DNA of 64,000 nt from Melieria omissa (lineage: Eukaryota; Arthropoda; Insecta; Diptera; Ulidiidae), in NCBI GenBank assembly GCA_963971225.1, contig OZ020269.1, positions 92,814,865-92,878,864 on the forward strand, given 5' to 3'. Below, one piece after another: positions 3,791 to 54,892 of the stretch. Below the pieces are notes generated by a model that was not told the DNA's origin, ran no database searches, and saw only the letters and a program-made list of their open reading frames with translations. Both the position numbers and the translations under genes were made by a program. Numbering within the stretch: position 1 is the first letter of the stretch; every line of letters starts with the position of its first letter.

Positions 3791-4141
3791 CGATGATGTG
3801 ATGTGATGTTATGTAATGTGATGTGATGTGACGTGACGTGATGTGATGTGATGTGATGTGATGTGATGTGATGTGATGTGATGTGATGTGATGTGATGTG
3901 ATGTGATGTGATGTGATGTGATGTGATGTGATGTGATGTGATGTGATGTGATGTGACGTGATGTGATATGATGTGATGTGATGTGATATGATGCGATGTG
4001 ATGTGATGTGATGTGATGTGATGTGATGTGATGTGATGTGATGTGATGTGATGTGATGTGATGTGATGTGATGTGATGTGATATGATATGATATGAGGTG
4101 ATGTGATGTGATGTGATGTGATGTGATGTGATGTGATGTGA
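3791..4141. repeat. Pentanucleotide satellite (ATGTG)n, about 350 bp
   Basis: About 70 units of ATGTG run almost without interruption, with occasional variants (atatg, acgtg, atgcg). An open frame on the minus strand through this block would give a Ser-His-His-Ile-Thr repeat only because 5-bp units in an open frame never meet a stop; it is not taken as a gene. Confidence 0.97.
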
Positions 4142-6330
4142 TTAGTCATCGATCGATTAGTGAGAATGTGGTTAAATGTTTTTTTTTGTGCGAACAACTT
4201 TTCAAAACGAATCCCCCAATTTTACTGATGTCGATGTCGATCAATCGTTCAGGCTCCTCTACTTTAAACGGCTCCAGAGAAACCATGAGGCACGCGCCAG
4301 TGCTTATGCACCTTTGTGATTACGCTACAATAACAACCACAACCATACTAAAAGAAAAAACAACAGCAGCAACCAAAATTGCACAATTATTCCTGTTCCA
4401 TCAGTTGCGACGGCACGTCACGTTTGAAGACACACTGCCGCGTGGTCAAGTAACGCGAACTGCTCACGTGGTGGCCACACATTGTGTAGGCGCACTCGAC
4501 TACTTGGCACGGAAGTAGCAGTAACAACAACAACAACAACAACAGTGACTTAAACAGCAGTCAGGCGCGTGACTTATTTGCTTGTTGAACAACACAATCA
4601 GCGGGAGGGGGAGCGAAGCTAACAACAACAACAATAATAATTACAGCAACAAGCAGACAAATTGATTCGCGACAAGAAACAAAACGGCAGCAACACAAAA
4701 GGAAGAGTCAGCAAAGTATAAAAAGACAGTAAAATAAGTGAGAATGAGGGGGAGGAGAAACGAGGGACGCATGGCTTTGTTGCAAAACAACCAAATCAAC
4801 AGTAACGCACCGATGCAGGCGACCAACGCCGCCGTCGCTGTCAATGGGCACCAATTGAGCCAATTTGCAGCGAGCCGCACACACACACACACAGACAAGT
4901 GAACAGCTCTCAGCAGAGTCGAGTGAACAAGAAACAAGTTTGCGAAAGGCGAAAAATGCCCAAATGAAACGAAGCGCGAAAACGAAAACAAAAGCGAGCC
5001 AAACGTTAAGAGATGAGGTGAAGGTGGGCGGGCGGGCAGTGAGCGAGTGGGTGCCAGGCGCTTCGTGCAATTTTATTGCCATTTCGCAGCCACCTGACAG
5101 ATTGCGTGCATTGGCGATTGGCGACCACGTAGACGCTGGCCAAGGTGCCAGCCTTATCAGCGATGCCGCAAGAGACCACCAACGCAGCTACAACAACAAC
5201 AACAACATGAACAAGAACAACAGCAACACGCATTCCGCATTCACTCGTAAAATTCATGCTTGAGTGGCAGTGGAAACAGAAGCAGTGCCGGAAACTGGCA
5301 AAAAATGAAACGAAAATCGCACACACACACACACAAAGAAGTGAGGGAAAAGCACGCAGCGTGGGAATTGTTAGCGTTTTTGTTGCTGTAATGTGCCGTC
5401 CAAGAGAAGCCCAGTGGGTGTGCGGCGCGCATTTTCCGCAACAGTGCAGATTTTTATTTTACAACTCGAAAGGTTGGAAAGCGTCCTTTAATATTCCTTT
5501 TCCACTCGCCTGGCGCTGGCTGCCAAAAATTTCCACTGTGGCAGCGGCACACCCACACAATTGTTGCCCCCGCACACAGTGCGAAAACAATAAAAGTCAT
5601 CGGTGGCTCGTAGTTTTTCAATTTTAGCTTTCGTGCAATCATTGATTGGTGCGCGCAAGGTGCAGGTGTCCGTCCGGCCTGCAAACGTTCGCATTACGCA
5701 AGTGAAATAAATGAGCAGCCACTTCGAATGCAATGCTGCGCACAAACTGCAGCAAAGTTTTGGCCGCAGCCGCAGCCACCGTTGCCGCCGCTGTCGCTGT
5801 CGCTGCCACAACGACGACACTTGAATGCGATAAAAAATGAGCGAATAAATTTCAAATGACAACTTCTTGAATTTCAGTACATTCCCCCCTCTCTCCGCCA
5901 TCCACCCAACTTTGTGTTTTCTTTCCTTTTCTTTTGGCCGCCCTCACACCCGCCGGTCGCTCGACTTTTTGGCCGCGTCTCGGCCGCACATTGTGGCACA
6001 TTTTAATTGAAATCAGAGCCGCGTAAAATCCATGCCTCGTTTGCCGAAAAGTGCAAGTTGCCGCCATTGCTGACGCAGTGACTTTTGTGCGCCAGCCATC
6101 AGACAGTCGCCTGCGCCTGCTCGGGCTTTTGTTATTTTCGGCAAACTTTTCACGCGTCGTTTCGTCTTTTCGCCGAAAAATGCAATGACAGCCAAATATT
6201 ATTCTTTGTCGACTTCAACGGCGAAATGCTTAAAACTCTCGTACAAGTTTGTTTTTTTTTTCTCAAAAATGTTTTCGGCAACTTTTATGAAGTAAGCTTT
6301 TTAAATTGTTATTATTGGTATTTTTTTTTT
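4142..6330. other. Host-like non-coding DNA with triplet and CA runs
   Basis: This is a GC-richer block of mixed complexity with CAA/CAG triplet runs (around 4520, 4620 and 5190) and short CA tracts (4877-4893, 5320-5336). I find no inverted-repeat ends, no retroelement protein and no frame resembling a known protein. Open frames of 60-137 codons overlap on both strands, as expected by chance in such sequence. It could be intronic or intergenic regulatory DNA of a fly gene outside the window. Confidence 0.5.
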
Positions 6331-7702: not shown

Positions 7703-7706
7703 ATAT

Positions 7707-7815
7707 TGTAACGATAAGACAGTCTGTCGCTGTGCAAAGCAACCCTGTCGCTACGCGCGTGCCATAATTCAACCTGGCAATGATGACCGCGATAATGGAA
7801 ACTTTTAGTCCAACC
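7707..7815 (+). mobile_element. LTR 5'-end fragment, inverted relative to 9787-10268
   Basis: It starts TGTAACGATAAGACAG and follows the LTR at 9787-10268 (read from its minus strand) for about 109 bp, up to 'ttttagtccaacc', where similarity stops and perilipin-derived sequence begins. Its 'ggactaaaag' segment supplies the TAA stop (7805-7807) of the perilipin frame on the minus strand. Confidence 0.85.
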
Positions 7816-8467
7816 CATGACGCTTGATCTGTCGGGAGACGTTCTGATAGACACGACGCGATATCTTGTGGGAGAGTCGGCCAACGGTCTGTACGGTGTG
7901 CAGTACGGGGTCCTCGCTGGCGGAAACTGGCACATTGTCTTCCTCGACATCGGTGTCGCACTTGGGAAAGTAGTACTCGAGCAGACACTCGGCGCGCGCT
8001 GTGGTTGTGTCGACGCCGGTCACTGCCAGGCTGCCGAACTGTGTGGCCAGCACTTCGTTGGCCTTGTGCCAAGCGAGCTCCTTCAGCGAGGAGGCCTTCT
8101 GTTGGTCGGCCGCCATGAATTTGTAGACGCGATCAATGTGGGGCGTGATCTGTCGGGAGACGTTCTGATAGACACGATTCGATATCTTGTGGGAGAGTCG
8201 GCCAACGGTCTGTACGGTGTGCAGTACGGGGTCCTCGCTGGCGGAAACTGGCACATTGTCTTCCTCGACATCAATGTCGCACTTGGGAAAGTAGTACTCG
8301 AGCAGACACTCGGCGCGCGCTGTGGTTGTGTCGACGCCGGTCACTGCCAGGCTGCCGAACTGTGTGGCCAGCACTTCGTTGGCCTTGTGCCAAGCGAGCT
8401 CCTTCAGCGAGGAGGCCTTCTGTTGGTCGGCCGCCATGAATTTGTAGACGCGATCAACGTGGGGCTT
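7805..8467 (-). pseudogene. Perilipin C-terminal segment, tandem units 2 and 3, cut off by a MITE
   Basis: Two copies of a 321-bp (107-codon) unit lie head to tail on the minus strand. Each runs from PH(V/I)DRVYKF to RQI(T/K) and matches residues 134-240 of the perilipin frame at 8850-9611. Both carry changes not in unit 1 (QFGS for QYGS, ARAEC for ALAER), so units 2 and 3 arose from each other after unit 1 was duplicated. The frame is open to a TAA inside the LTR fragment, reading RQIKRHGLD before the stop. An ATG created at the edge of the MITE (IMKPHVDRV) could in principle restart translation. Removing the MITE and one duplication copy joins this frame to the upstream one without a shift. 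Whether any product is made is unknown. Confidence 0.85.
8459..8467. repeat. 9-bp target duplication, left copy
   Basis: GTGGGGCTT precedes the MITE and is repeated exactly at 8886-8894. On the minus strand it encodes the KPH of the unit 1/unit 2 joint. Confidence 0.8.
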
Positions 8468-8885
8468 CATGATACAATTATAAAGGTAGTGTATTCCGGG
8501 AGAAAGCCAGAATGGCAATGCCTTATACAGAATGTTGCTCATAATGATGGGGACAATTTCACAAATGGGGGAAAAATTCGTATCCTGTAAGTGATAAAAC
8601 AAGATAAGTTATGGACCTTTAGATTGACATATTTTGACAAAAAAATATCACAAATATATATTTATTCGCCCACGATTTCCGGCACAGCGTGCAGCTTGAT
8701 TTTCCTATTTTCGAATGATTTAATTGAAACATAAAATCTTTTTTCGTGTGCCTATCAATACATGTGCACGTAAGCAAACGAAAAAAAGCAACATTATTTT
8801 TCATTTCGAATTCAATAAGCCATCGAGTTGACAGCTTTTGCAAGAAAGCCTATCGGGAATACACTACCTTTGTAATTGTATCATG
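8468..8885. mobile_element. MITE-like element inserted in the perilipin coding sequence
   Basis: The 418-bp element has inverted ends of about 30 bp: CATGATACAATTATAAAGG at the left, and the inverse of CATGATACAATTACAAAGG at the right, each continuing through 'tagtgtattcc'. It is flanked by perfect 9-bp copies of GTGGGGCTT (8459-8467, 8886-8894). Deleting the element plus one copy (427 bp) restores the 321-bp repeat period exactly, which confirms it as an insertion. The 9-bp duplication fits Mutator-like elements better than hAT (8 bp), but the superfamily is not certain. The interior is AT-rich and has no transposase. Confidence 0.88.
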
Positions 8886-9611
8886 GTGGGGCTTGATCTG
8901 TCGGAAGACGTTCTGATAGACACGACGCGATATCTTGTGGGAGAGTCGGCCAACGGTCTGTACGGTGTGCAGTACGGGGTTCTCGCTGGCGGAAACTGGC
9001 ACATTGTCTTCCTCAACATCGGTGTCGCACTTGGGGAAGTAGTACTCGAGCAGACGCTCGGCGAGCGCTGTGGTTGTGTCGACGCCGGTCACTGCCAGGC
9101 TGCCGTACTGTGTGGCCAGCACTTCGTTGGCCTTGTGCCAAGCGAGCTCCTTCAGCGAGGAGGCCTTCTGTTGGCCGGCCGCCATGAATTTGTAGACGCG
9201 ATCAATGTGGGGCTGCACAACGTCAATCACTTTGCTCTTGGCCTGATTGTAGATCTCCTGCAGTGTGTCCTTGATTATGGGCGCCGTCACCTCTAGCTTA
9301 TCAATGCCTTTGACCAGAGTCTGATCTACATACTGAATGAGACGATCGAGTTTGGAGACAATGGGCACTGCCGTTTTAACGGCACGCGAGACACAATCTT
9401 CGGCGGCACTCAGAGCCCAGTTTAAGACGCGATTGTTTTCTTTGAATTTCCCGTAGACATCCTGACTCTTGTCCCAGGCCGCGCCCACCAACTTGATGAT
9501 GCGCTCCAGCGGCTCGAGGTGCGACAGCAGATTCTGCGAGTCCTTGGACAGTTCGACAGCGGCGGTGCCATTGGCAGCCGCATTCTTGCTTTGCTCAGCA
9601 CTTGTGGTCAT
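8850..9611 (-). CDS. Perilipin (PAT family, Lsd-2/Plin2-like) retrotransposon-borne copy, truncated
   Basis: Perilipins coat cytosolic lipid droplets and control lipase access to stored triglyceride. This 253-codon frame starts at ATG 9611 and is open with no sign of introns. Residues 31-66 (HLEPLERIIKL, AWDKSQDVYGK, RVLNWAL) fit the N-terminal PAT region. Residues 95-133 (YVDQTLVKGIDKLE, IYNQAKSKVIDVVQ) and 160-240 (ANEVLATQYGSLAVTGVDTT, YYFPKC, HTVQTVGRLSHKISRRVY) fit the conserved fly perilipin-2 body. The normal C-terminal part after RQIK is missing. The frame runs into a MITE and stops after PHHDTITKVVYSR, the last residues being MITE-derived. It lies 175 bp downstream of an LTR in the same orientation, so expression could be LTR-driven. 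Fly perilipin genes normally contain introns, which suggests a cDNA origin. The assignment comes from remembered family sequence, not a search. Confidence 0.85.
   Translation of the reverse strand: MTTSAEQSKNAAANGTAAVELSKDSQNLLSHLEPLERIIKLVGAAWDKSQDVYGKFKENNRVLNWALSAAEDCVSRAVKTAVPIVSKLDRLIQYVDQTLVKGIDKLEVTAPIIKDTLQEIYNQAKSKVIDVVQPHIDRVYKFMAAGQQKASSLKELAWHKANEVLATQYGSLAVTGVDTTTALAERLLEYYFPKCDTDVEEDNVPVSASENPVLHTVQTVGRLSHKISRRVYQNVFRQIKPHHDTITKVVYSR
8886..8894. repeat. 9-bp target duplication, right copy
   Basis: An exact repeat of GTGGGGCTT at 8459-8467, immediately outside the right end of the MITE. Confidence 0.8.
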
Positions 9612-9786
9612 TTTTACAGTTTTTTTGCTTTTTTTTAATTAATTTCTATTTATTTCTGATGTGAAAAGTCTGTTTTTCAACTTGGGCAAGTTTACGAAAC
9701 ACTTGAAAATAATTTTTTTTCTGTATTTTTATTTTTTTTTTGTTTATTTCTGACACCAAATCTTACGAATACTAGTTCTAGTGGGC
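9612..9786 (-). promoter_or_regulatory. Leader between LTR and perilipin ATG, with candidate primer-binding site
   Basis: On the minus strand the leader follows the LTR terminus directly. About 25 bases in, TGGTGTCAG (plus strand near 9752-9760) is the form expected for pairing with a tRNA 3' end ...CTGACACCA, as in fly tRNA-Leu (tRNA sequence from memory). The rest is A-rich with long A/T tracts. A retroelement leader directly joined to a host coding sequence supports transduction. A primer site normally abuts the LTR more closely, so this is only a candidate. Confidence 0.45.
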
Positions 9787-10268
9787 TGTTACGTATCTCT
9801 GGATTGCGTAATTTGAAAATAAAACACACTCAGTTTCTCAAACGCAGTCAATAAAATAAACCAACAATCACTTTATTTCACAGATTTACACTTCACTGTC
9901 TTTACACTTAAGTATTTGCTTAATTACTCCGTGTGGCACCTTCACTAGTCAAAATCAGATTGACTCGCTGCGCCGCATCCGGCTGCCTTTTATACCTGTC
10001 CGGCCATCGCGCAGATCGTTCTCGCACATTCCAGAGTGGACTAAAGGTTTCCATGATCATCGCGACCATCATTGCCAGGTTGGACTAAAAGTTTCCATTA
10101 TCGCGGTCATCATTGCCAGGTTTGACTAAAAGTTTCCATTATCGCGGCCATCATTGCCAGGTTGGACTAAAAGTTTCCAGTATCGCGGTCATCATTGCCA
10201 GGTTGAATTATGGCACGCGCGTAGCGACAGGGTTGCTTTGCACAGCGACAGACTGTCTTATCGTTACA
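9787..10268 (-). mobile_element. Complete LTR, minus orientation, with internal 47-bp tandem repeats
   Basis: Read on the minus strand it begins TGTAACGATAAG and ends GATACGTAACA. It contains a TATA box (ggtataaaagg, about 9988-9998 on the plus strand inverse) and AATAAA, followed by 'tattttattgactgcg', and it ends with the same 'ttttattttcaa' block as the solo LTRs at 122-533 and 10273-10602. The U3 holds about four tandem copies of a 47-bp unit ('ggactaaaagtttccattat' to 'atcattgccaggtt', 10040-10205). It is the likely promoter for the perilipin frame at 8850-9611. Confidence 0.85.
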
Positions 10269-10272
10269 ATAT

Positions 10273-10602
10273 TGTAACGGTGAGTCACTCTGTGCTGTGC
10301 TATGCATGAATGCTTTTCCAAGCATACTTTTAGGCATGCACTTTGGAGTACGCCAAACTTGCTATAATTCCGTTATGGCGCGGATGGTTCGCCAAAGGTG
10401 ATGAACTATGCTAGAACAATCGAGATAGAAAGTACAACTGGAATGTGCCAGAAACTTCGGCGCGATAAGGAAACCAGTATAAAAGCAGCAGTGTGCAATA
10501 AAGCCATTGTAGGTTTTTGGCTGCGTTTTGCGCTGAGTAATTGAAGTGGTTTTATTTTCAAGCACAATCCAAAATGAACTTAGAGAAGTCATTTTCGTAA
10601 CA
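10273..10602 (+). mobile_element. Solo LTR, copy 2, inserted at the ATAT flank of the composite element
   Basis: The 330-bp LTR runs from TGTAACGG to TTCGTAACA, flanked by ATAT (10269-10272 and 10603-10606). It is the same family as 122-533: shared phrases include 'cactctgtgctgtgc', 'catacttttaggcatgcact', 'aacttcggcgcgataag' and 'tataaaagcagcagtgtgca'. It used the target duplication of the neighbouring composite element as its own target, so it is younger than that element. Confidence 0.85.
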
Positions 10603-10606
10603 ATAT

Positions 10607-11813: not shown

Positions 11814-12380
11814 AGAAATTCGGAAAATTGCTCCACAGCTGGTCAGAAGTTGCTCTTAGAGGGTTCATATCTATGACTTACCCCCACTAATTGTTCGTTC
11901 TGAACATTTCTTTCGAACATTACTACCCCCTTTCTCCAACCCTTAATGAGGCTCCCATACAAAATAGTCATCTTTACAGAACAGGCTCCCACTGCCACCA
12001 GGTTGCCCCCAGAGATGTCAAATGTAAGACTGACACCCATTTATTTTCCCTTTCGAATGTTTCTTTCAAACATATCTACCCGCTATCTCCAAGTCCTAAG
12101 GAAGCTGCCATACAAAAGTGGCCATTTTCTCTGCCATTGTAAATGAAGTAGTTAAGTAAGCGAGAAAATCATCGTATCTCGGAAACTACTGCACCAATTT
12201 GAATGATTTATTTAACAGCCAGCACCATTTTTCAGTGCCAAAAATACAAAATTAACTTATGTTCAGAAATTCACCATCAGAGGGCGTCTCCCATACGAAC
12301 GGAGTTGTGAGGTTGTCAACTTTTGGGTTTCAAAGCAATAATCATTGTCATGAATTGTCGAAACCCCATTAACCTCCACA
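11814..12380 (-). mobile_element. Dispersed element with internal 170-bp repeats, short copy
   Basis: The reverse complement follows 20830-22085 in order. 'attgctccacagctg' and 'ttgctcttagagggtt' (11826-11865) match the right end of that element. 'ttcgaacattactacccc' and 'ggctcccatacaaaa' match its repeat unit. 12145-12380, including 'gttgtgaggttgtcaacttt', matches its left part. This copy has about two repeat units against five in the other. No protein is encoded. Confidence 0.75.
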
Positions 12381-20829: not shown

Positions 20830-22085
20830 ATATTCGAAAATGCGAGGTTAATGGGGTTTCGATAGTACATTTTAATTTTTGCTTCACAGAAACGCAAAAG
20901 TTGACAACCTCACAACTTTGTTTGTATGGGAGGTGCCCTCTGGTGGTGAACTTTTGAACTTTTATTATTTTTGTATTTTTTGCACTCAAAAATGTGGCCA
21001 ACTGTTGAATAAATCAATCAAATTGGTTTAGTAGGTTTTTAGATACTAGGTTTCCTTGCTTACTTTAGTACATTTGCAAGTGGGGAGCCAATTCCCTAGA
21101 AAATTGTCAGTTTTGTATGGCAGCACCCTTAACAGTTCTAGATAGCGGTTAGGTAAGTATGAGAAAAATATTCAGAAAGTAAAATAATTCAGGGTCAGTC
21201 TTAGATTTGATACGTCTGGGAAGCACTTGAAAGCAATGGAAGCTTATTTTATAAAAACAATGATTTTATATGGAAGCCTCATTAAGTGGTGAAGATAGAG
21301 GGTAGTTATGTTCGAAAGAAATGTTCAGAATGAAAATTTAGTGGGGGTCAGTCATAGTTGTTAACCCTCTAAGAGCAATTTGTGAGCAGCTGTGGATCAA
21401 CCTATGGAGCAGCCTATTTTATAAAAACAATGATTTTGTATGGGAGCCTCCTTAAGGGTTGAAGATAGAGGGTAGTTATGTTCGAAAGAAATGCTCAAAA
21501 CAAAAAATTAGTGGGGATCAGTCATAGTTGTTAACCCTCTAAGTGCAACCTCTGAGCAGCTGTGGGGCAACCTATGGAGCAGTCTATTTTATAAAAATTA
21601 TGATTTTGTATGGGAGCCCCATCAAGAGTTAGAGATAGGGGGTAGTTTTGTTCGAAAGAAATGTTCAGAACGAAAAATTAGTGGGAGTCAGTCATAGTTC
21701 TTAACCCTCTAAGAGTAACCCCTGAGCAGCTGTGGAGCAACTTTTGGCGCTATTTTATAAAAACTATGATTTCGTATGGAAGCCTTATCAAGGGTTAGAG
21801 ATAGGGGGTAGTTATGTTGGAAAGAAATGTTCAGAACGAAAAACTAGTGGGGGTCAGTCGTAGTTTTTAACCCTCTAAGAGCAACCCCCGAGCAGCTGTG
21901 GAGCAGCCTATGGACCAGCTTATTTTATAAAAACAATGATTTTGTATGGGAGGCTCATTAAGGGTTGCAGATAGGGGGTAGTTATGTTCGAAAGAAATGT
22001 TCAAAACGAGAAATTAGTGGGGGTCAGTCATAGTTGTTAACCCTCTAAGAGCAACATCTGAGCAGCTGTGGAGCAATCGGTCGAA
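20830..22085 (+). mobile_element. Dispersed element with five tandem 170-bp repeats, long copy
   Basis: The left part (20830-21080, with 'gttgacaacctcacaacttt') is inverted relative to 12145-12380. It is followed by units starting near 21248, 21417, 21588, 21752 and 21923. Each unit has 'ttataaaaacaatgatttt', 'tatgggagcc', 'agatagggggtagttatgtt', 'gaaagaaatgttcagaac', 'gtgggggtcagtcatag', 'aaccctctaagagcaac' and 'gagcagctgtggagcaa'. Spacing is about 165-170 bp. Presence of the same non-repeat flank and repeat unit at two loci with different copy numbers suggests a non-autonomous mobile element with an expandable internal minisatellite. Confidence 0.78.
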
Positions 22086-23800: not shown

Positions 23801-24462
23801 TTCGCTATAAGTTAGGTTCGGTTAAGTTATAGCGGCTGTCCGAACCGAACATGGACCCATTATGATACCACAAGAAGGTAGTAATGGATGAATCCTAGCA
23901 GGTCTCTATATTGCCTTCTCTGATCAGTGGAGCACACAGAATTTCATTTGGGGGGTGGGGGTGCTTTGTACACAGCTTTTAAGCCTAATACCATTTGAAA
24001 CTATAGTTTTTGCATACAGTTTTTCCAACAAATAGATAATTGTTCCTTTAGTTTTATTTAGCCTTTAGTTCTGATCATCTGTTCAGTTATTCAAGTTTTC
24101 AAAGAATGGTGAGCCTAGAGTTTTCTATTTTCGTCTAGAGAAACTCGGCCAAGCCGGCCCAGAAGTTGACTTATAGTTTCTTTTTCCTCCAGATTCTGGT
24201 CTCAACGAATTACAATTCGATTACACCTAATTCTCTTTTTACACGATAGATACGATCCCAAAAAGTTCGTGTAAAAAATATCGTGTAAAAAGAGAATTAG
24301 GTGTAAACAATATTAAAAAATTCTTGTTAAGGTTCACTTAATCCATTTCGTTCTTACACATTTAAATTCATTAAATTTATTTAAAAAAAATCAATTGTAT
24401 CTTGGAAAAAAGGAAATATGTCAAAAAATCATTAATATAAAAAAGTTAAAATTATATAGACA
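23801..24462. other. Mixed TE debris left of the copia element, with an 86-bp palindrome
   Basis: 24221-24306 is a hairpin with 28-bp perfect arms (TTACACCTAATTCTCTTTTT continuing to ACACGATA, and its inverse). Around 24100-24180 a phrase with 'gagcctag' and 'gacttatagt' also occurs near 35690-35735 and, inverted, near 56880-56970, so it is a dispersed repeat of unknown class. Confidence 0.55.
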
Positions 24463-24628
24463 TGTTAGAAGGTTTGCAGAGCACGGTACTTTATTTGGCT
24501 GAGTTCGAACACAGAAGAGAAAGTGATTTCATTTTTACATACTATTTATACAGTGTATGCTTATGTACTAAGAAGGTTGGAACACTGGAATATCAATGGG
24601 AAATATATTGAGTTGCCAACTCTTAACA
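24463..24628 (-). repeat. 3' LTR of copia-type element (left in window)
   Basis: The 166-bp LTR starts TGTTAGAAGG and ends ACTCTTAACA on the plus strand. By eye it is identical to 28643-28808. AGACA at 24458-24462 is the left target duplication. Inboard of it, the minus strand carries GAGAAGGCG, a short candidate polypurine tract. Confidence 0.95.
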
Positions 24629-24687
24629 CGCCTTCTCAACGAAATGTATTTCAAATTACCAGAAAAATAAATCAATATAATGAAACA

Positions 24688-27600
24688 TTAGTACAATCCC
24701 ATTTCTTTAGTAAACTTACAATGTTTTAGCCTTTGCAAATTTTTCGTTAGGATATCGGATAACATTTCATTACTACAAACATAGTTTAATTCAATTTCAT
24801 TATTCTTATACAAATTTCTAATATGGTGATATTTTATATCAATATGTTTGCTCTTGGCATGGTAAACTTGATTCTTAACTAAATGTTGAGCGCTTTGATT
24901 GTCGCTATTCAAAACCATAGGCGTCGTTTTGGGAAAACCAATTTCGTTCAGCAACTTGTTTATGTAGACTGCCTCTTTTGCTGCTGTTGAGAGAGCGACG
25001 TATTCCGCCTCGGTGCTGCTTAGTGCCACTAAATTTTGTTTTCGTGACTCCCACGAAAACACGCTGCCGGCTAAGACGAATGCACACCCAGTGTAGGACT
25101 TTCTGTCGATCGTATCGCCACCCCAGTCTGCATCCACAAAACACTCAATCGGCTTACCCGTCTTCTGATAATGGAGCTTCAAATCAGCTGACCCTTTAAG
25201 GTAACGCAAAATATGTTTTGCGCCAGCCTCATGCTCGACGTGAGGGTCGGTGTTGCGCTGCGCAAGCTTGCTGACAGAGTGTAGAATGTCAGGGCGCGTT
25301 GATATTGCTAAGTACATAAGGGCACCGATGAGCGACTGGTACCTCGTAATGTCGACCGTTCTGCAGCTGTTATCGTCGCATCGTACTTGAAATCCTGCGT
25401 CCAGTGGCGTCGCTACGCTCTTACACTCCTCCATGCCATACTGTTTTAGCAAATTGAAAATGTACTGCCGCTGACAGATAGTAATAGGTCCTGTAGCGCC
25501 TTCCCGACTGATCTCCATGCCAAGGAAGTACTTCAGCGGTCCTCCGTCGACAACGTCAAATGCGTTCGCGATTCTTGCTTTGAATTGTTCCAAGTCTTCA
25601 AGCTTTGTGCTGGCTAAAATAAGGTCATCAACATAAACGGCGATTATATTAAAATTACCTCCGTTATTGAGCGTATACACACACGGCTCGCTAACGCATG
25701 GCATGAAGCCCATGCCTCTCAGCACTTCATCTAGCTTGCCGTTCCACTCACGACCACTCTGCTTTAACCCATAAAGCGCCTTCTTAAGTTTCAGAACCCG
25801 ATGTGGAAATCTGGTACTAATGAAATGCTCCGGCTGTTTCATATACACTGTGTCATGTAGCTCACTGTTCAAATACGCCGACGATACGTCCATTTGGTGC
25901 AAATGCAATTTGTACTCGCACGCTAAAGCCAGCAACATACGAATAGTGGCGTATCTGACCACAGGTGAAAATGTTTCGGTAAAGTTTACACCGAACTGTT
26001 GGCTGCAGCCCTTTGCAACCAATCGGGACTTAAACCGCTGAACGCTGCCATCTGCATCTCGCTTTACGTTGTACACCCACTTACAACCGATAACTTTTTC
26101 TCCCACTGGAAGGTCAACTAACGACCATGTGTCATTGCGTATCAGAGCATCAAACTCCTTCTGCATCGAGTTTCGCCACTGCTTGGAATATTTACCGCTT
26201 AATGCTTCTTGTACGCTTTGTGGAATTTCTACTTCTTCTGCCTCCAATAAATTCACCATATGGCGCCTTTTACGTGGACGACCACGCTTACCGGTACGGA
26301 TTATCATTGGCCTACCTCGACTTGTAGATTGCGCGGCGCTGCTGGGTGGTATAATGCCACCAGCGTTGCTCTCAGGTGGTACGTCGTTGCTGTCGTCGTT
26401 CATGCCCTCGGCCACATTTTCGCGTCTTCCAGTCAACAAATCTCCAGCATCAAACGTTACTAAATCGCTCTCCGCGCCTTCTCCTTTTGCACGACCATAC
26501 GCGCTCTCCATGAATATGACGTCTCTACTTATAACCACCTTTTTGGCTGCTACATCGTACAAACGATAAGCCTTTGAGGTGTTGGAGTAACCCACCATAA
26601 TCATCTCCTTGCCCTTTGCTTTAAACTTTTTATGCTGCGTTTTGTCGATTGCCACCGCTAGGCAGCCAAACACTTTCAAATGAGACACGCTCGGCTTCTT
26701 ACCGGTCCATACTTCGTACGGCGTCTTATCCACAAGTGTTTTTGTTGCAGCTCGATTTCGGAGATATGCTGCAGTCGCCACTGCCTCCGCCCAAAAACAC
26801 TCGTGTAGCTCACTATGTACAAGCATGCTTCTCGCCGACTCTACCAAAGTTCGATTAGCTCGTTCAGCTACACCATTCTGCTGAGGTGTGTGCGGAACTG
26901 TAAGTTGGCGCACAATACCATTTTCACGCAGCACATCTTCAAAGCCCTTGCTCAAATATTCGCGACCATTATCGCTTCGTAAAATTTTAATTTTTCGACC
27001 CGTTTGTTTCTCCGCCATTGTCTTAAATGCTTTGAATACCGACAACACTTCGTCTCTAGTTTTCAAAAAATATACAAAAGTATAGCGCGACATGTCATCA
27101 ATAAATGTTACGAAATATTGTGACCCGCCAATCGATTTTGTTTTTATAGGACCGCATATGTCCGTGTGCACAACCTCTAGCAACACTCGCGCGCGATTTC
27201 GTGACACATGTGGAAACGGTTTAACACAAATTTTACTCTTTGCACACGTTATGCACTGTTCGTCTTTTTGTATTTCTTTAATATCAAGTCCATTTACTAG
27301 TCTTTTAATCGACATTTCTTTTAAAGTTTCAAAATTTAAGTGGCCGAACCGATTATGCCATACAATTCCGTCTTTATTCGCATTTTGTGCATAGAAACAT
27401 TTATTCGTGCGATTTTTAAACATAAATAAACCGTGTTCTTCCTTCGCTCTCATAACACCCGCGCCGTTTGCACTTTTTATCACCGCATACTGTTTTTCAA
27501 AGCTAACCGTGAGACCATTGCTTGTCGCTTTACTTACGGACACGAAGTTGCTTTGCAATGCAGGTACGTGTAGTACATCGTTTAATATAATCTCACAGTC

Positions 27601-28569
27601 ACCACGAAGACGAATTTCACCTCGACCGCAAGCCTCTATGTAATTACTCCCCGCTAGCATGATCTTCTCTTTGTGCACTTCATACGTAGAGAACATAGAA
27701 CGGTCGCAGCATAAGTGGGCTGTGGCCCCACTATCAATGCACCAAACATCACGCGCCAAGCTGAGTGCAGGTGTAGCGGCAAGAATGGAAAACGACGATT
27801 GCTGAACTCTCTTCGGCTCTCTGCACTTCGCGGCGAAATGACCTCTACGACCGCAATTGTAGCACTTGCCGTTCATACGTCTGTTGTTGTTGTTACTGCT
27901 ACTGCTGCTGTTGTTGTTGTTAACGGAGCCCTTTTCCCCATGCGTGCGTGCGACAAACGCCTGATGACTTTGATCACCTTCCAATTGCTCGCCCCTCTCA
28001 CGTCGTCGTTCGCATTCCTCTAACAGCTTGACCCTGAGAGATTGCAAGGACGGCAAAGAATCACGCGTTTCGATGGCTATGACGAAGTTTTCGTAAGCTG
28101 CAGACAAACTCGACAGCAAGATGATGACCAGGAGCTCCTCTGGCACGTCAACTCCAATTTCTGACAATTTCTCCGTCACCTCGTAGAATTCGTTAATATG
28201 CTCCACCATGTTCTCACCTTCATTCAGCCGCAAGTATAACAGTTTTTTAAAAAGTGTAACCTTCCGCGCCGGTCCGGTTGGCTGGTAAATCTCTTTCAAT
28301 TTTGCCCACGCCTTTGCCGATGTGTCGCAATGTTTGACGAAGTTGAGTTGGGATGGTTTTATGCACAGCATAATGCTCGCCAACGCTTTCTCATCTTTTG
28401 CGTCGAAAGCAGCAGACTCTGCCGGTGTCACTAAGTCACTTTTTAACTGCTTACCGCTGACTATGCTCCACAGCTCCGAATGTATCAGCACGCTTTTCAT
28501 ATGGACGGACCATGATGTATAATTTTTATCATCTAACTTTTCGATAGCGTACAGCGCGGCGGAACTCAT
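24688..28569 (-). CDS. Copia-type Gag-Pol polyprotein
   Basis: The single frame of 1293 residues drives element packaging, reverse transcription and integration. Start is taken at ATG 28569 (MSSAALYAIEKLDD, NYTSW); seven upstream sense codons lack an ATG. The N-terminal Gag helices are followed by an Asn/Ser run and a zinc knuckle CYNCGRRGHFAAKC (236-249). The protease motif is DSGAT (about 279). Pre-integrase His/Cys residues are H405, H410, C439 and C442. The integrase triad is about D470, D533 and E569 (HTDICG, RSDNGREY, QQNGVAERANR). RT has RLVAKGCSQQ, TFSPVVRYAT, HQMDVSSAYLN and YVDD (979-982). RNase H has DADWGG (about 1146), SSTEAEYVALS and KSKHIDIKYHHIR. All key residues seen are present, with no frameshift or stop. 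Confidence 0.97.
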   Translation of the reverse strand: MSSAALYAIEKLDDKNYTSWSVHMKSVLIHSELWSIVSGKQLKSDLVTPAESAAFDAKDEKALASIMLCIKPSQLNFVKHCDTSAKAWAKLKEIYQPTGPARKVTLFKKLLYLRLNEGENMVEHINEFYEVTEKLSEIGVDVPEELLVIILLSSLSAAYENFVIAIETRDSLPSLQSLRVKLLEECERRRERGEQLEGDQSHQAFVARTHGEKGSVNNNNSSSSSNNNNRRMNGKCYNCGRRGHFAAKCREPKRVQQSSFSILAATPALSLARDVWCIDSGATAHLCCDRSMFSTYEVHKEKIMLAGSNYIEACGRGEIRLRGDCEIILNDVLHVPALQSNFVSVSKATSNGLTVSFEKQYAVIKSANGAGVMRAKEEHGLFMFKNRTNKCFYAQNANKDGIVWHNRFGHLNFETLKEMSIKRLVNGLDIKEIQKDEQCITCAKSKICVKPFPHVSRNRARVLLEVVHTDICGPIKTKSIGGSQYFVTFIDDMSRYTFVYFLKTRDEVLSVFKAFKTMAEKQTGRKIKILRSDNGREYLSKGFEDVLRENGIVRQLTVPHTPQQNGVAERANRTLVESARSMLVHSELHECFWAEAVATAAYLRNRAATKTLVDKTPYEVWTGKKPSVSHLKVFGCLAVAIDKTQHKKFKAKGKEMIMVGYSNTSKAYRLYDVAAKKVVISRDVIFMESAYGRAKGEGAESDLVTFDAGDLLTGRRENVAEGMNDDSNDVPPESNAGGIIPPSSAAQSTSRGRPMIIRTGKRGRPRKRRHMVNLLEAEEVEIPQSVQEALSGKYSKQWRNSMQKEFDALIRNDTWSLVDLPVGEKVIGCKWVYNVKRDADGSVQRFKSRLVAKGCSQQFGVNFTETFSPVVRYATIRMLLALACEYKLHLHQMDVSSAYLNSELHDTVYMKQPEHFISTRFPHRVLKLKKALYGLKQSGREWNGKLDEVLRGMGFMPCVSEPCVYTLNNGGNFNIIAVYVDDLILASTKLEDLEQFKARIANAFDVVDGGPLKYFLGMEISREGATGPITICQRQYIFNLLKQYGMEECKSVATPLDAGFQVRCDDNSCRTVDITRYQSLIGALMYLAISTRPDILHSVSKLAQRNTDPHVEHEAGAKHILRYLKGSADLKLHYQKTGKPIECFVDADWGGDTIDRKSYTGCAFVLAGSVFSWESRKQNLVALSSTEAEYVALSTAAKEAVYINKLLNEIGFPKTTPMVLNSDNQSAQHLVKNQVYHAKSKHIDIKYHHIRNLYKNNEIELNYVCSNEMLSDILTKNLQRLKHCKFTKEMGLY

Positions 28570-28627
28570 TTTATACACGGCAACGATCAATATTAAAACT
28601 GTTTTATTTTTTCAAAGTCAATGTCGG

Positions 28628-28642
28628 CCTGGGCCCATAACC
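28628..28642 (-). promoter_or_regulatory. Primer-binding site matching the anticodon arm of initiator tRNA-Met
   Basis: Directly inside the 5' LTR the minus strand reads GGTTATGGGCCCAGG. Its complement (CCTGGGCCCATAACC) is the anticodon-arm sequence of eukaryotic initiator tRNA-Met, with one outer base differing, not the tRNA 3' end. Copia of Drosophila uses such an internal half-tRNA primer (established knowledge). This explains the absence of a TGG-type site. Confidence 0.88.
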
Positions 28643-28808
28643 TGTTAGAAGGTTTGCAGAGCACGGTACTTTATTTGGCTGAGTTCGAACACAGAAGAGA
28701 AAGTGATTTCATTTTTACATACTATTTATACAGTGTATGCTTATGTACTAAGAAGGTTGGAACACTGGAATATCAATGGGAAATATATTGAGTTGCCAAC
28801 TCTTAACA
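28643..28808 (-). repeat. 5' LTR of copia-type element (right in window)
   Basis: It is 166 bp long and identical by eye to 24463-24628. AGACA follows at 28809-28813. In element orientation this LTR should hold the promoter for the polyprotein. Confidence 0.95.
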
Positions 28809-51054: not shown

Positions 51055-52490
51055 ATTTTTATTTGAAATAATTTAATTTTAATTTAATTTTTAAATAATT
51101 TTAAGAATTTTGAATAATTTAAATAGTTCCAACTATAATTTTAAAAAATTTTAATAAAGTTTTAATAAGATTTTAAAATTTTTTAATAATTTAAATAATT
51201 CAACAAATAATGTGAAAAGTTTTAAATAATATTTTTTAAAGGATTTTAACATTTTTTCATAATTTAAATAAATCAACAATTAATTAAAACATTTTAAAAA
51301 TATTTTAATAAGATTTTGAAAATTTTTAATAATTTAAATAATTCAACACATAATTTGAAAAAGTTTTAAAAAATATTTTTTAAAAGATTTTAACATTTTT
51401 TCATAATTTAAATAAATCAACAATTAATTCAAAAAATTTTAAAAATATTTTAATAAGATTTAAAAAATGTTTAATAATTTAAATAATTCAACAAATAATT
51501 TGAAAAGTTTTAAATAATATTTTTTTCAAGGATTTTAACATTTTTTCCTAATTTAAATAAATCAACAATTAATTAAAAAAATTTTAAAATATTTTAATAA
51601 GACTAATAATTTTTAAAAATTTAAATAATTCAACACATAATTTGAAAAAGTTTTAAATAATATTTTTTAGAGGATTTTAAAATTTTTTCATAATTTAAAT
51701 AAATCCACAATTAATTAAAAAAAATTAAAAAAATATTTTAATAAGATTTTAAGAATTTTAATAACTTAAATAATTAAACAAATAATTTTAAAAAATAATA
51801 AAATTGATATAACATATCAGTACGATTTCAACACTTTTTTATAGTTTAAATAATTAAAAAAATTAAATAATATTCTAGTAATTTTTTAACAACCTTGAAT
51901 ATTTCAATAATTCAACAAATAGCTCAAAAAAAATTTTAATAAAATTTGAACAGTTTTTAATATTTGAAATAATGCGAGAATTAATATAAAAAAATTAATA
52001 AATATTTTAATAATTTTGAATAATTTAAATAGAACAACAAATAACTAAAAAAAAATTAAATAATATTTTAGTAATATTTTAGCAATTTTTAATTATTTAA
52101 CTTATTCAACAAATAATTACAAAAATTAATAAATAAAATTCTAATGAGTTTTTAAAAACTTTGATATTTAAATAATTCAACAAAAAATTAAAAAAAATCA
52201 ATGAGATTTTAACAATTTTGAAAAATTTAAATAACACAACAAATAATTAAGAAAAATTTAAATAATATTTTAATAATATTTAAACAATTTTGAATAATTT
52301 CAGTAATACAACAAATAACTACAAAAAATTGCAATAATATTTGATGAGATTTTAACAATTTCGAATAATTTAAATTATTCAACAAATAATTTAAATATAA
52401 TTTAAATACCATTTTTTAAGATTTTAACAATTTTGTATAATTTAAATCACAAAACAAGAAAATTAAAAAAAATTTTAAATAATATACCTC
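51055..52490. repeat. AT-rich satellite-like field, unit about 145 bp
   Basis: 'gattttaacattttttcata' followed by 'atttaaataaatcaacaatt' recurs near 51241, 51388, 51528 and 51673, with 'taatttaaataattcaacaa' between. Later units are more diverged. The sequence is over 80 percent A+T. The same family occurs at 54465-54895. Confidence 0.85.
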
Positions 52491-54464: not shown

Positions 54465-54892
54465 TTTTCTTTTAAATAATATTTTCATAAGATTCTAACA
54501 ATTTTGAATAATTTAAATAATTCAAAAAATTATGTTAAAAAAAATTATGTTAAAAAAAATTATATACTATTTTAATACGATTTTAACAATTTTAAATAAT
54601 TTAAATGATTCACCAAATAATTTATAAACAAATTATATACTATTTTGATATTATTTTAACAATTTTTAGTAATTTAAATAATAAAAAAAATAATTTTAAA
54701 GCACTTTAAATAACATATTAATACGATTTAAACATTTTTTAATAACTTAAGCAATTCAACAAATCATTCAAAAAAAATTAAATAACATTCTAATAAGTTT
54801 TTAACAACTTTAAATATTTAAATAATTTAACAAATAATTTCAAAAAAATTTCAGTAAGATTTTAACAATATTGAATAATTCAAATAATGAAA
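54465..54892. repeat. Second AT-rich satellite-like field
   Basis: 'taatttaaataattcaac', 'aaataattt' and 'gattttaacaatttt' phrases are shared with 51055-52490 but with shorter spacing. It abuts the SINE at 54893. Confidence 0.75.

Follow-up and report, generated by a model that had tools for sequence, protein, structure and literature searches.

The 64,000-nucleotide stretch of Melieria omissa (Diptera, Ulidiidae) analyzed here, referred to as the window (contig OZ020269.1 of assembly GCA_963971225.1, positions 92,814,865 to 92,878,864 of the forward strand), contains a 2,562-bp unit at positions 7707 to 10268, with ATAT on either side, in which perilipin coding sequence lies next to a long terminal repeat (LTR). 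Read along the minus strand, the unit consists of this LTR (LTR1), a leader, a perilipin frame, an insert, two more perilipin copies, and an inverted piece of the U3 region of the LTR. The coordinates of all features are collected in Table 1.

A preliminary description of the locus had proposed a full LTR with TATA and AATAAA signals, and we could confirm this assignment, since two related LTRs elsewhere in the window, LTR2 and LTR3, share the termini and signals of LTR1. The three can be aligned at their termini, at TATAAAAG, at AATAAAG, and over most of their 3' sequence. They diverge in the central portion of U3, and the segment from TATAAAAG to AATAAAG is missing in LTR2. Each is associated with a 4-bp A/T-rich repeat, namely ATAT for LTR1 and LTR2 and GTAT for LTR3. 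At its inner edge, LTR1 is followed by GCCC... and not by ATAT, and it is thus not a solo LTR in place. LTR2 sits at the unit's own ATAT (10269 to 10606), so that ATAT occurs three times around two elements. ATAT is reported as one of the palindromic targets of some groups of Drosophila LTR elements (PMC5408687), which makes two insertions at one ATAT understandable and the ATAT around the unit weaker evidence than it would otherwise seem.

The same orientation of LTR1 and the perilipin frame, the spacing of 175 bp between them, and a primer-like site in that spacer had likewise been described, and all three were found again: the ATG lies at 9611, the leader is exactly 175 nucleotides (nt) long, and the word TGGTGTCAGAA begins 28 nt past the end of LTR1. 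The last two bases of this word, beyond those listed in Table 1, presumably match insect tRNA-Leu as well. Scanning the window for TGGTGTCAGAA with up to one mismatch yielded a single match, which was exact, with 1.24 matches expected by chance, so that only the position of the word just inside LTR1 is informative. A published reverse primer directed at human tRNA-Leu(CAG) starts with TGGTGTCAG, which is the complement of the 3' end of that tRNA (PMC7229842).

At the left end of the unit, 108 of 109 nucleotides are identical to positions 10160 to 10268 in reversed orientation. The single difference, at 7795, matches another repeat unit of LTR1. With 99% identity, this left U3 piece is far closer to LTR1 than to LTR2 or LTR3. 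It ends exactly at the LTR terminus, so that the unit has the start of U3 at each of its outer ends. The earlier proposal that the unit is bounded by LTR termini and matching ATAT duplications therefore needs to be modified: the ATAT copies are present on both sides, but on the left the unit ends in 109 nt of inverted U3 and not in a second direct LTR.

Inferred spliced origin, tandem copies, and probable decay of the perilipin cargo

The perilipin frame matches PF03036 with an E value of 3.9e-21. A protein search with the copy returned 377 relatives, and the 120 of them that were listed all carry a perilipin domain; the named organisms among these 120 are flies, the proteins are mostly Lsd-2, and the best match listed has 83% identity. 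A search of solved structures gave no match at an E value of 0.001 or better. In a phylogenetic tree, the copy groups with tephritids, with a support of only 0.75.

In an alignment with 14 relatives, the copy joins DVEEDN straight to VPVSA, which is also how isoform X2 of other flies is predicted to read. In Bactrocera, Teleopsis, and Drosophila, the predicted isoform X1 has a cassette of 16 to 17 amino acids exactly at this join, and isoforms X3 and X4 of Bactrocera dorsalis switch sequence at the same point. We thus infer from the predicted proteins that the native genes have an exon boundary between DVEEDN and VPVSA, where the copy is continuous. The intronless status of the copy accordingly refers to one exon boundary, deduced from predicted isoforms. 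After about 240 residues the perilipin sequence ends, while the 14 aligned native proteins run on.

The initial description of a perilipin frame with no visible introns holds as far as the perilipin identity and the X2-like join are concerned, but the frame is interrupted, with 321 bp present in three tandem copies and a 418-bp insert. The 321-bp unit corresponds to 107 codons, and the three copies (c1 to c3) are in frame. No known protein with a tandem perilipin array was found among the 120 listed of 371 matches; the query coverage of these 120 was either at most 46% (at 56 to 84% identity) or 72% (at 49 to 54% identity). Over 323 positions, c1 and c2 differ at 14, c1 and c3 at 8, and c2 and c3 at 6. 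At four sites, c2 and c3 agree on D, F, R, and C, against G, Y, L, and R in c1 as well as in the 14 native proteins aligned, and c1 alone has N and F where 97 relatives (see below) have D and S. These states suggest that the array grew through two separate events, with changes arising in the interval, rather than by a single slip; gene conversion among the copies could blur this history. The tandem joint has a possible three-base overlap, AGC, as read by eye.

The insert is flanked by the 9-bp duplication GTGGGGCTT, and the frame pieces on its two sides are in register apart from the insert itself. The spacing between c1 and c2 (748) exceeds that between c2 and c3 (321) by 427, which equals 418 + 9. 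Since the spacing fits and the duplicated bases span the tandem joint, the insert arrived after the c1/c2 joint had formed. The insert is at most a possible relative of the P element: the first six bases of its termini resemble those of P, but its duplication is of 9 bp and not 8. The divergence of the inverted U3 arms (1 of 109) and that of the tandem copies (6 to 14 of 323) are numbers too small to order the events firmly.

The ratios of nonsynonymous to synonymous codon changes between the copies (10:2 for c1 and c2, 6:2 for c1 and c3, and 4:0 for c2 and c3) fit a lack of constraint, although the counts are small. We further compared the copy with 97 of the 120 listed relatives, leaving aside 23 whose last 35 aligned positions do not correspond to the canonical segment or whose N-terminal part is missing. 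Seven of the 90 columns invariant in these 97 relatives are altered in the copy, one of them by deletion of the residue. In a leave-one-out comparison, only 1 of the 97 relatives was as altered as the copy, with a median of 0. When all 120 listed relatives were used, alternative isoforms included, 5 of 73 columns were changed, and 1 of 120 relatives had as many. The branch of the copy is the third longest of 98 in the tree. On these grounds, the perilipin copy is probably a pseudogene. A functional gene is disfavored by the codon-change ratios and the changed invariant columns, even though a frame of 253 codons is open up to the insert. The proposed LTR-driven effect on lipid storage also appears less likely, since the frame is broken and apparently relaxed.

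Origin of the two U3 termini

We favor, as the rather probable explanation, that a spliced Lsd-2 (perilipin) mRNA was retroposed by way of an LTR element, that the resulting retrocopy has become a pseudogene, and that an aberrant strand transfer gave it two U3 termini. That an LTR element captured a spliced perilipin mRNA, as proposed at the outset, is supported by the X2-like join, the order of LTR and primer-like site, the lack of a duplication at the inner edge of LTR1, and the outer ATAT copies; ATAT is a frequent target of some Drosophila LTR elements (PMC5408687). In the proposed sequence of events, reverse transcription would have linked a perilipin mRNA to the transcript of an LTR element, or would have used a read-through transcript, giving the order LTR, primer site, leader, and perilipin. 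No normal 3' LTR would have been completed at the distal end, and the growing cDNA would have become linked to nascent, inverted U3 DNA from the same family, ending exactly at the U3 terminus. The product would have been a linear cDNA with two U3 termini, both of which the integrase of the element may have used at an ATAT site, creating the 4-bp duplication. The 107-codon perilipin segment would have been tandemly duplicated twice, at different times, and the inverted-repeat element would later have inserted between copies 1 and 2. The layout of the unit, the X2-like join, the inverted U3 end, the tandem copies, the insert, and the outer ATAT copies are observed directly; the strand transfer, the integration in one piece, and the loss of function are deduced.

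Several observations weigh against this explanation. At the joint between perilipin and U3 we saw no clear microsimilarity, and the six bases in between are unassigned. The primer-site match is short and 28 nt away from the LTR. The evidence for integration as a single unit is the pair of ATAT copies, and this match is not a strong one, given that ATAT makes up 0.67% of the four-base words in the window, also surrounds LTR2, and is a preferred target of some elements. Pairing the right ATAT with the left one is plausible but not unique, because the right ATAT is also the left ATAT of LTR2. As to the decay of the cargo, when columns conserved to at least 97% are considered, 8 of 127 are changed in the copy and 4 of the 97 relatives reach that number, a weaker contrast. 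In addition, the 97 relatives are not independent, since many of the species are close and some proteins are represented by several isoforms, and the host lineage itself may account for part of the difference from the native proteins.

Among the alternatives, the one that survives best, which we nevertheless consider unlikely, assumes two LTR insertions and a deletion: an ordinary retrocopy consisting of LTR and perilipin (or its 5' end) would later have received a second, oppositely oriented member of the family, and a deletion would have taken out all sequence from perilipin up to the last 109 nt of the second LTR. The family has several copies here, at least two of them at ATAT, so that a second insertion at ATAT is not far-fetched. 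The difference at 7795 can also be read in favor of a separate second element. This course of events, however, requires that the outer duplications match by chance and that the deletion stopped inside U3, and the left U3 is 99% like LTR1, with LTR2 and LTR3 far less alike.

It is highly improbable that the perilipin retrocopy was made independently of the LTR element, for instance by a LINE, and later received LTR insertions on both sides. An intronless copy does adjoin several LTR insertions, as would be expected in that case, but no 4-bp duplication is present at the inner edge of LTR1, and the primer-site-like word lies just inside it. By eye, no poly(A) run is found at the 3' end of the perilipin sequence, where U3 follows within six bases, and the A-rich runs of the leader are located upstream of the ATG. 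A solo LTR beside a retrocopy is disfavored by the same inner edge.

A DNA transposon with terminal inverted repeats (TIRs), Foldback-like or of the Pack-TIR type and carrying a gene fragment, is hardly credible as an origin. The unit does have inverted termini of 109 bp with tandem repeats beside them, the 108 of 109 matching positions correspond to what is expected of TIRs, and Pack-TIR elements have been reported in animals (PMC8277862). The same termini are nevertheless found on solo LTRs, in a family that has TATA and poly(A) signals and is flanked by 4-bp duplications; they are not the termini and duplication of a DNA-transposon superfamily, and the cargo looks spliced. Least credible of all is an assembly error, or a native perilipin gene that received an LTR on its upstream side: the LTR and the frame have the same orientation, but exons are joined at a native boundary, the sequence stops after about 240 residues, part of it is triplicated in frame, and the window contains no N. 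We thus reject the native gene on the joined exons and the truncation, and in view of the X2-like exon joining and the unduplicated inner edge of LTR1, the locus probably represents neither the native gene nor a retrocopy that merely adjoins a solo LTR.

Beyond a single aberrant event, one might envisage that the perilipin-bearing unit belongs to a self-perpetuating, nonautonomous family with two U3 termini, mobile without a 3' LTR, whose cargo array grew stepwise over several rounds. Such a family would be compatible with the exact U3 ends and with tandem copies that arose in two steps; we regard it as a rather doubtful extension of the retrocopy explanation.

Feature coordinates and other elements in the window

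Table 1. Features of the perilipin-bearing unit and of the related LTRs (positions in the window)
Feature	Position	Strand	Remarks
LTR3, solo LTR related to LTR1 and LTR2	122-533 (aligned as 123-533)		GTAT on either side
ATAT, left target duplication of the unit	7703-7706	.	Read from sequence
First 109 nt of LTR1 (start of U3), inverted	7707-7815	+	U3 terminus on the left of the unit
Six bases at the perilipin/U3 joint	7816-7821	.	First base possibly perilipin
Perilipin segment copy 3 (c3)	7822-8144	-	Sequence comparison
Perilipin segment copy 2 (c2)	8143-8465	-	Tandem with c3
GTGGGGCTT, 9-bp duplication on one side of the insert	8459-8467	.	Read from sequence
Insert resembling a miniature inverted-repeat transposable element	8468-8885	.	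418 bp; 30-bp terminal inverted repeats CATGATAC..., arms 97% complementary; breaks the perilipin frame
GTGGGGCTT, 9-bp duplication on the other side of the insert	8886-8894	.	Read from sequence
Perilipin segment copy 1 (c1)	8891-9213	-	Contiguous with the N-terminal part
Open frame, 253 codons from ATG	8850-9611	-	240 residues of perilipin, ending with c1, followed by 13 from joint and insert
Leader from LTR1 to ATG, 175 nt	9612-9786	-	Primer-site-like word in its outer part
TGGTGTCAGAA, primer-binding-site-like	9748-9758	-	First nine bases complementary to the 3' end of tRNA-Leu
LTR1	9787-10268	-	482 bp; TGTAACG...CGTAACA, with TG...CA ends; carries TATAAAAG and AATAAAG
AATAAAG in LTR1	9871-9877	-	Position read by eye
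TATA-like sequence in LTR1	9987-9994	-	Position read by eye
Four copies of a 41-bp repeat in U3 of LTR1	10037-10205	-	Repeat analysis
ATAT shared by the unit (as its right duplication) and LTR2 (as its left one)	10269-10272	.	Read from sequence
LTR2, related solo LTR	10273-10602	+	Head to head with LTR1; between ATAT repeats
ATAT, right duplication of LTR2	10603-10606	.	Read from sequence

Outside the unit, the window contains a Copia-type element (24460 to 28808) with 169-bp direct repeats (24460 to 24628 and 28640 to 28808) that are 99% alike. It carries an uninterrupted frame of 1,307 codons on the minus strand, and the closest named relative of residues 300 to 800 of this frame, from Ceratitis capitata, is 59% identical. 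Several tandem arrays are also present. Positions 3794 to 4142 consist of about 70 copies of the five-base unit TGATG, and positions 21241 to 22076 of about five tandem copies of a 170-bp unit, to which parts of 11843 to 12040 are similar by eye. An A/T-rich, satellite-like array with a unit of about 145 bp lies at 51088 to 52485, with a similar-looking array at 54472 to 54865.

Related systems and implications

The perilipin unit resembles the products of LTR-mediated retroposition (Tan et al. 2016, via PMC5408686, PMC8232201, and PMC9674220) in that a spliced, partial cDNA is combined with LTR-element sequence, with a 5' LTR, a primer-like site, and a short A/T-rich duplication on the outside, the right copy of which is shared with LTR2. 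It differs from them in its inverted 109-nt U3 piece on the 3' side, its tandem triplication, and its lack of a clear microsimilarity where perilipin meets U3. According to published descriptions, LTRs flank the retrocopies made in this way (PMC8232201); in our unit the 5' LTR is present and the defining direct 3' LTR is not, the 3' side having only the U3 piece. According to a review, all polymorphic Drosophila retrocopies of Tan et al. 2016 were LTR-made (PMC5408686), and the initial notion that such a capture is rare in insects is therefore not supported. The capture by an LTR element is by itself unexceptional; it is the double-U3 architecture that is exceptional.

The initial comparison with transduction by retroviruses was not borne out either. 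The unit is similar to such a transduction in that a host coding sequence is preceded by an LTR and a primer-like site and is oriented like the LTR, but unlike it in having no direct 3' LTR and no viral coding sequence in its two main minus-strand frames. No gag or pol was detected by Pfam in these two frames, which gave three weak, below-cutoff matches besides perilipin, and the two direct LTRs of a canonical LTR retrotransposon were not found in the unit, which shares with such an element the primer-like site behind the 5' LTR. Foldback-like elements and Pack-TIR transposons (PMC8277862) share with the unit a gene fragment between terminal inverted repeats and the presence of tandem repeats; they differ in that the termini of the unit are LTR termini, its duplication is of 4 bp, and its cargo looks spliced. 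Another insect case that combines partial host-gene cDNA with LTR-element sequence is Pxyfem, the W-linked partial PxyMasc retrocopies of Plutella xylostella (PMC9674220). Pxyfem is a multicopy sequence for which no LTRs were identified, and it gives rise to small RNAs that silence the parent gene.

Judged by title and start of the abstract, none of the items listed in a literature search on perilipin, retrotransposons, and tephritids describes such a unit. Judged in the same way, a search on inverted-LTR or strand-transfer products returned nothing on point, which is a narrow basis for calling the double-U3 architecture unreported. Searches on Lsd-2 splicing found nothing, literature on Micropia had nothing on tRNA primer sites, and a fly long-read paper had nothing on retrocopies.

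If our explanation is true, two inverted U3 termini together with an apparent 4-bp target duplication would show that an aberrant strand transfer can still yield an integrable product. Double-U3 units of this kind might explain gene copies that are missed by screens for paired LTRs. If it is transcribed, the LTR-driven sense fragment could yield a truncated perilipin or, by analogy with the moth retrocopy of another gene (PMC9674220), small RNAs.

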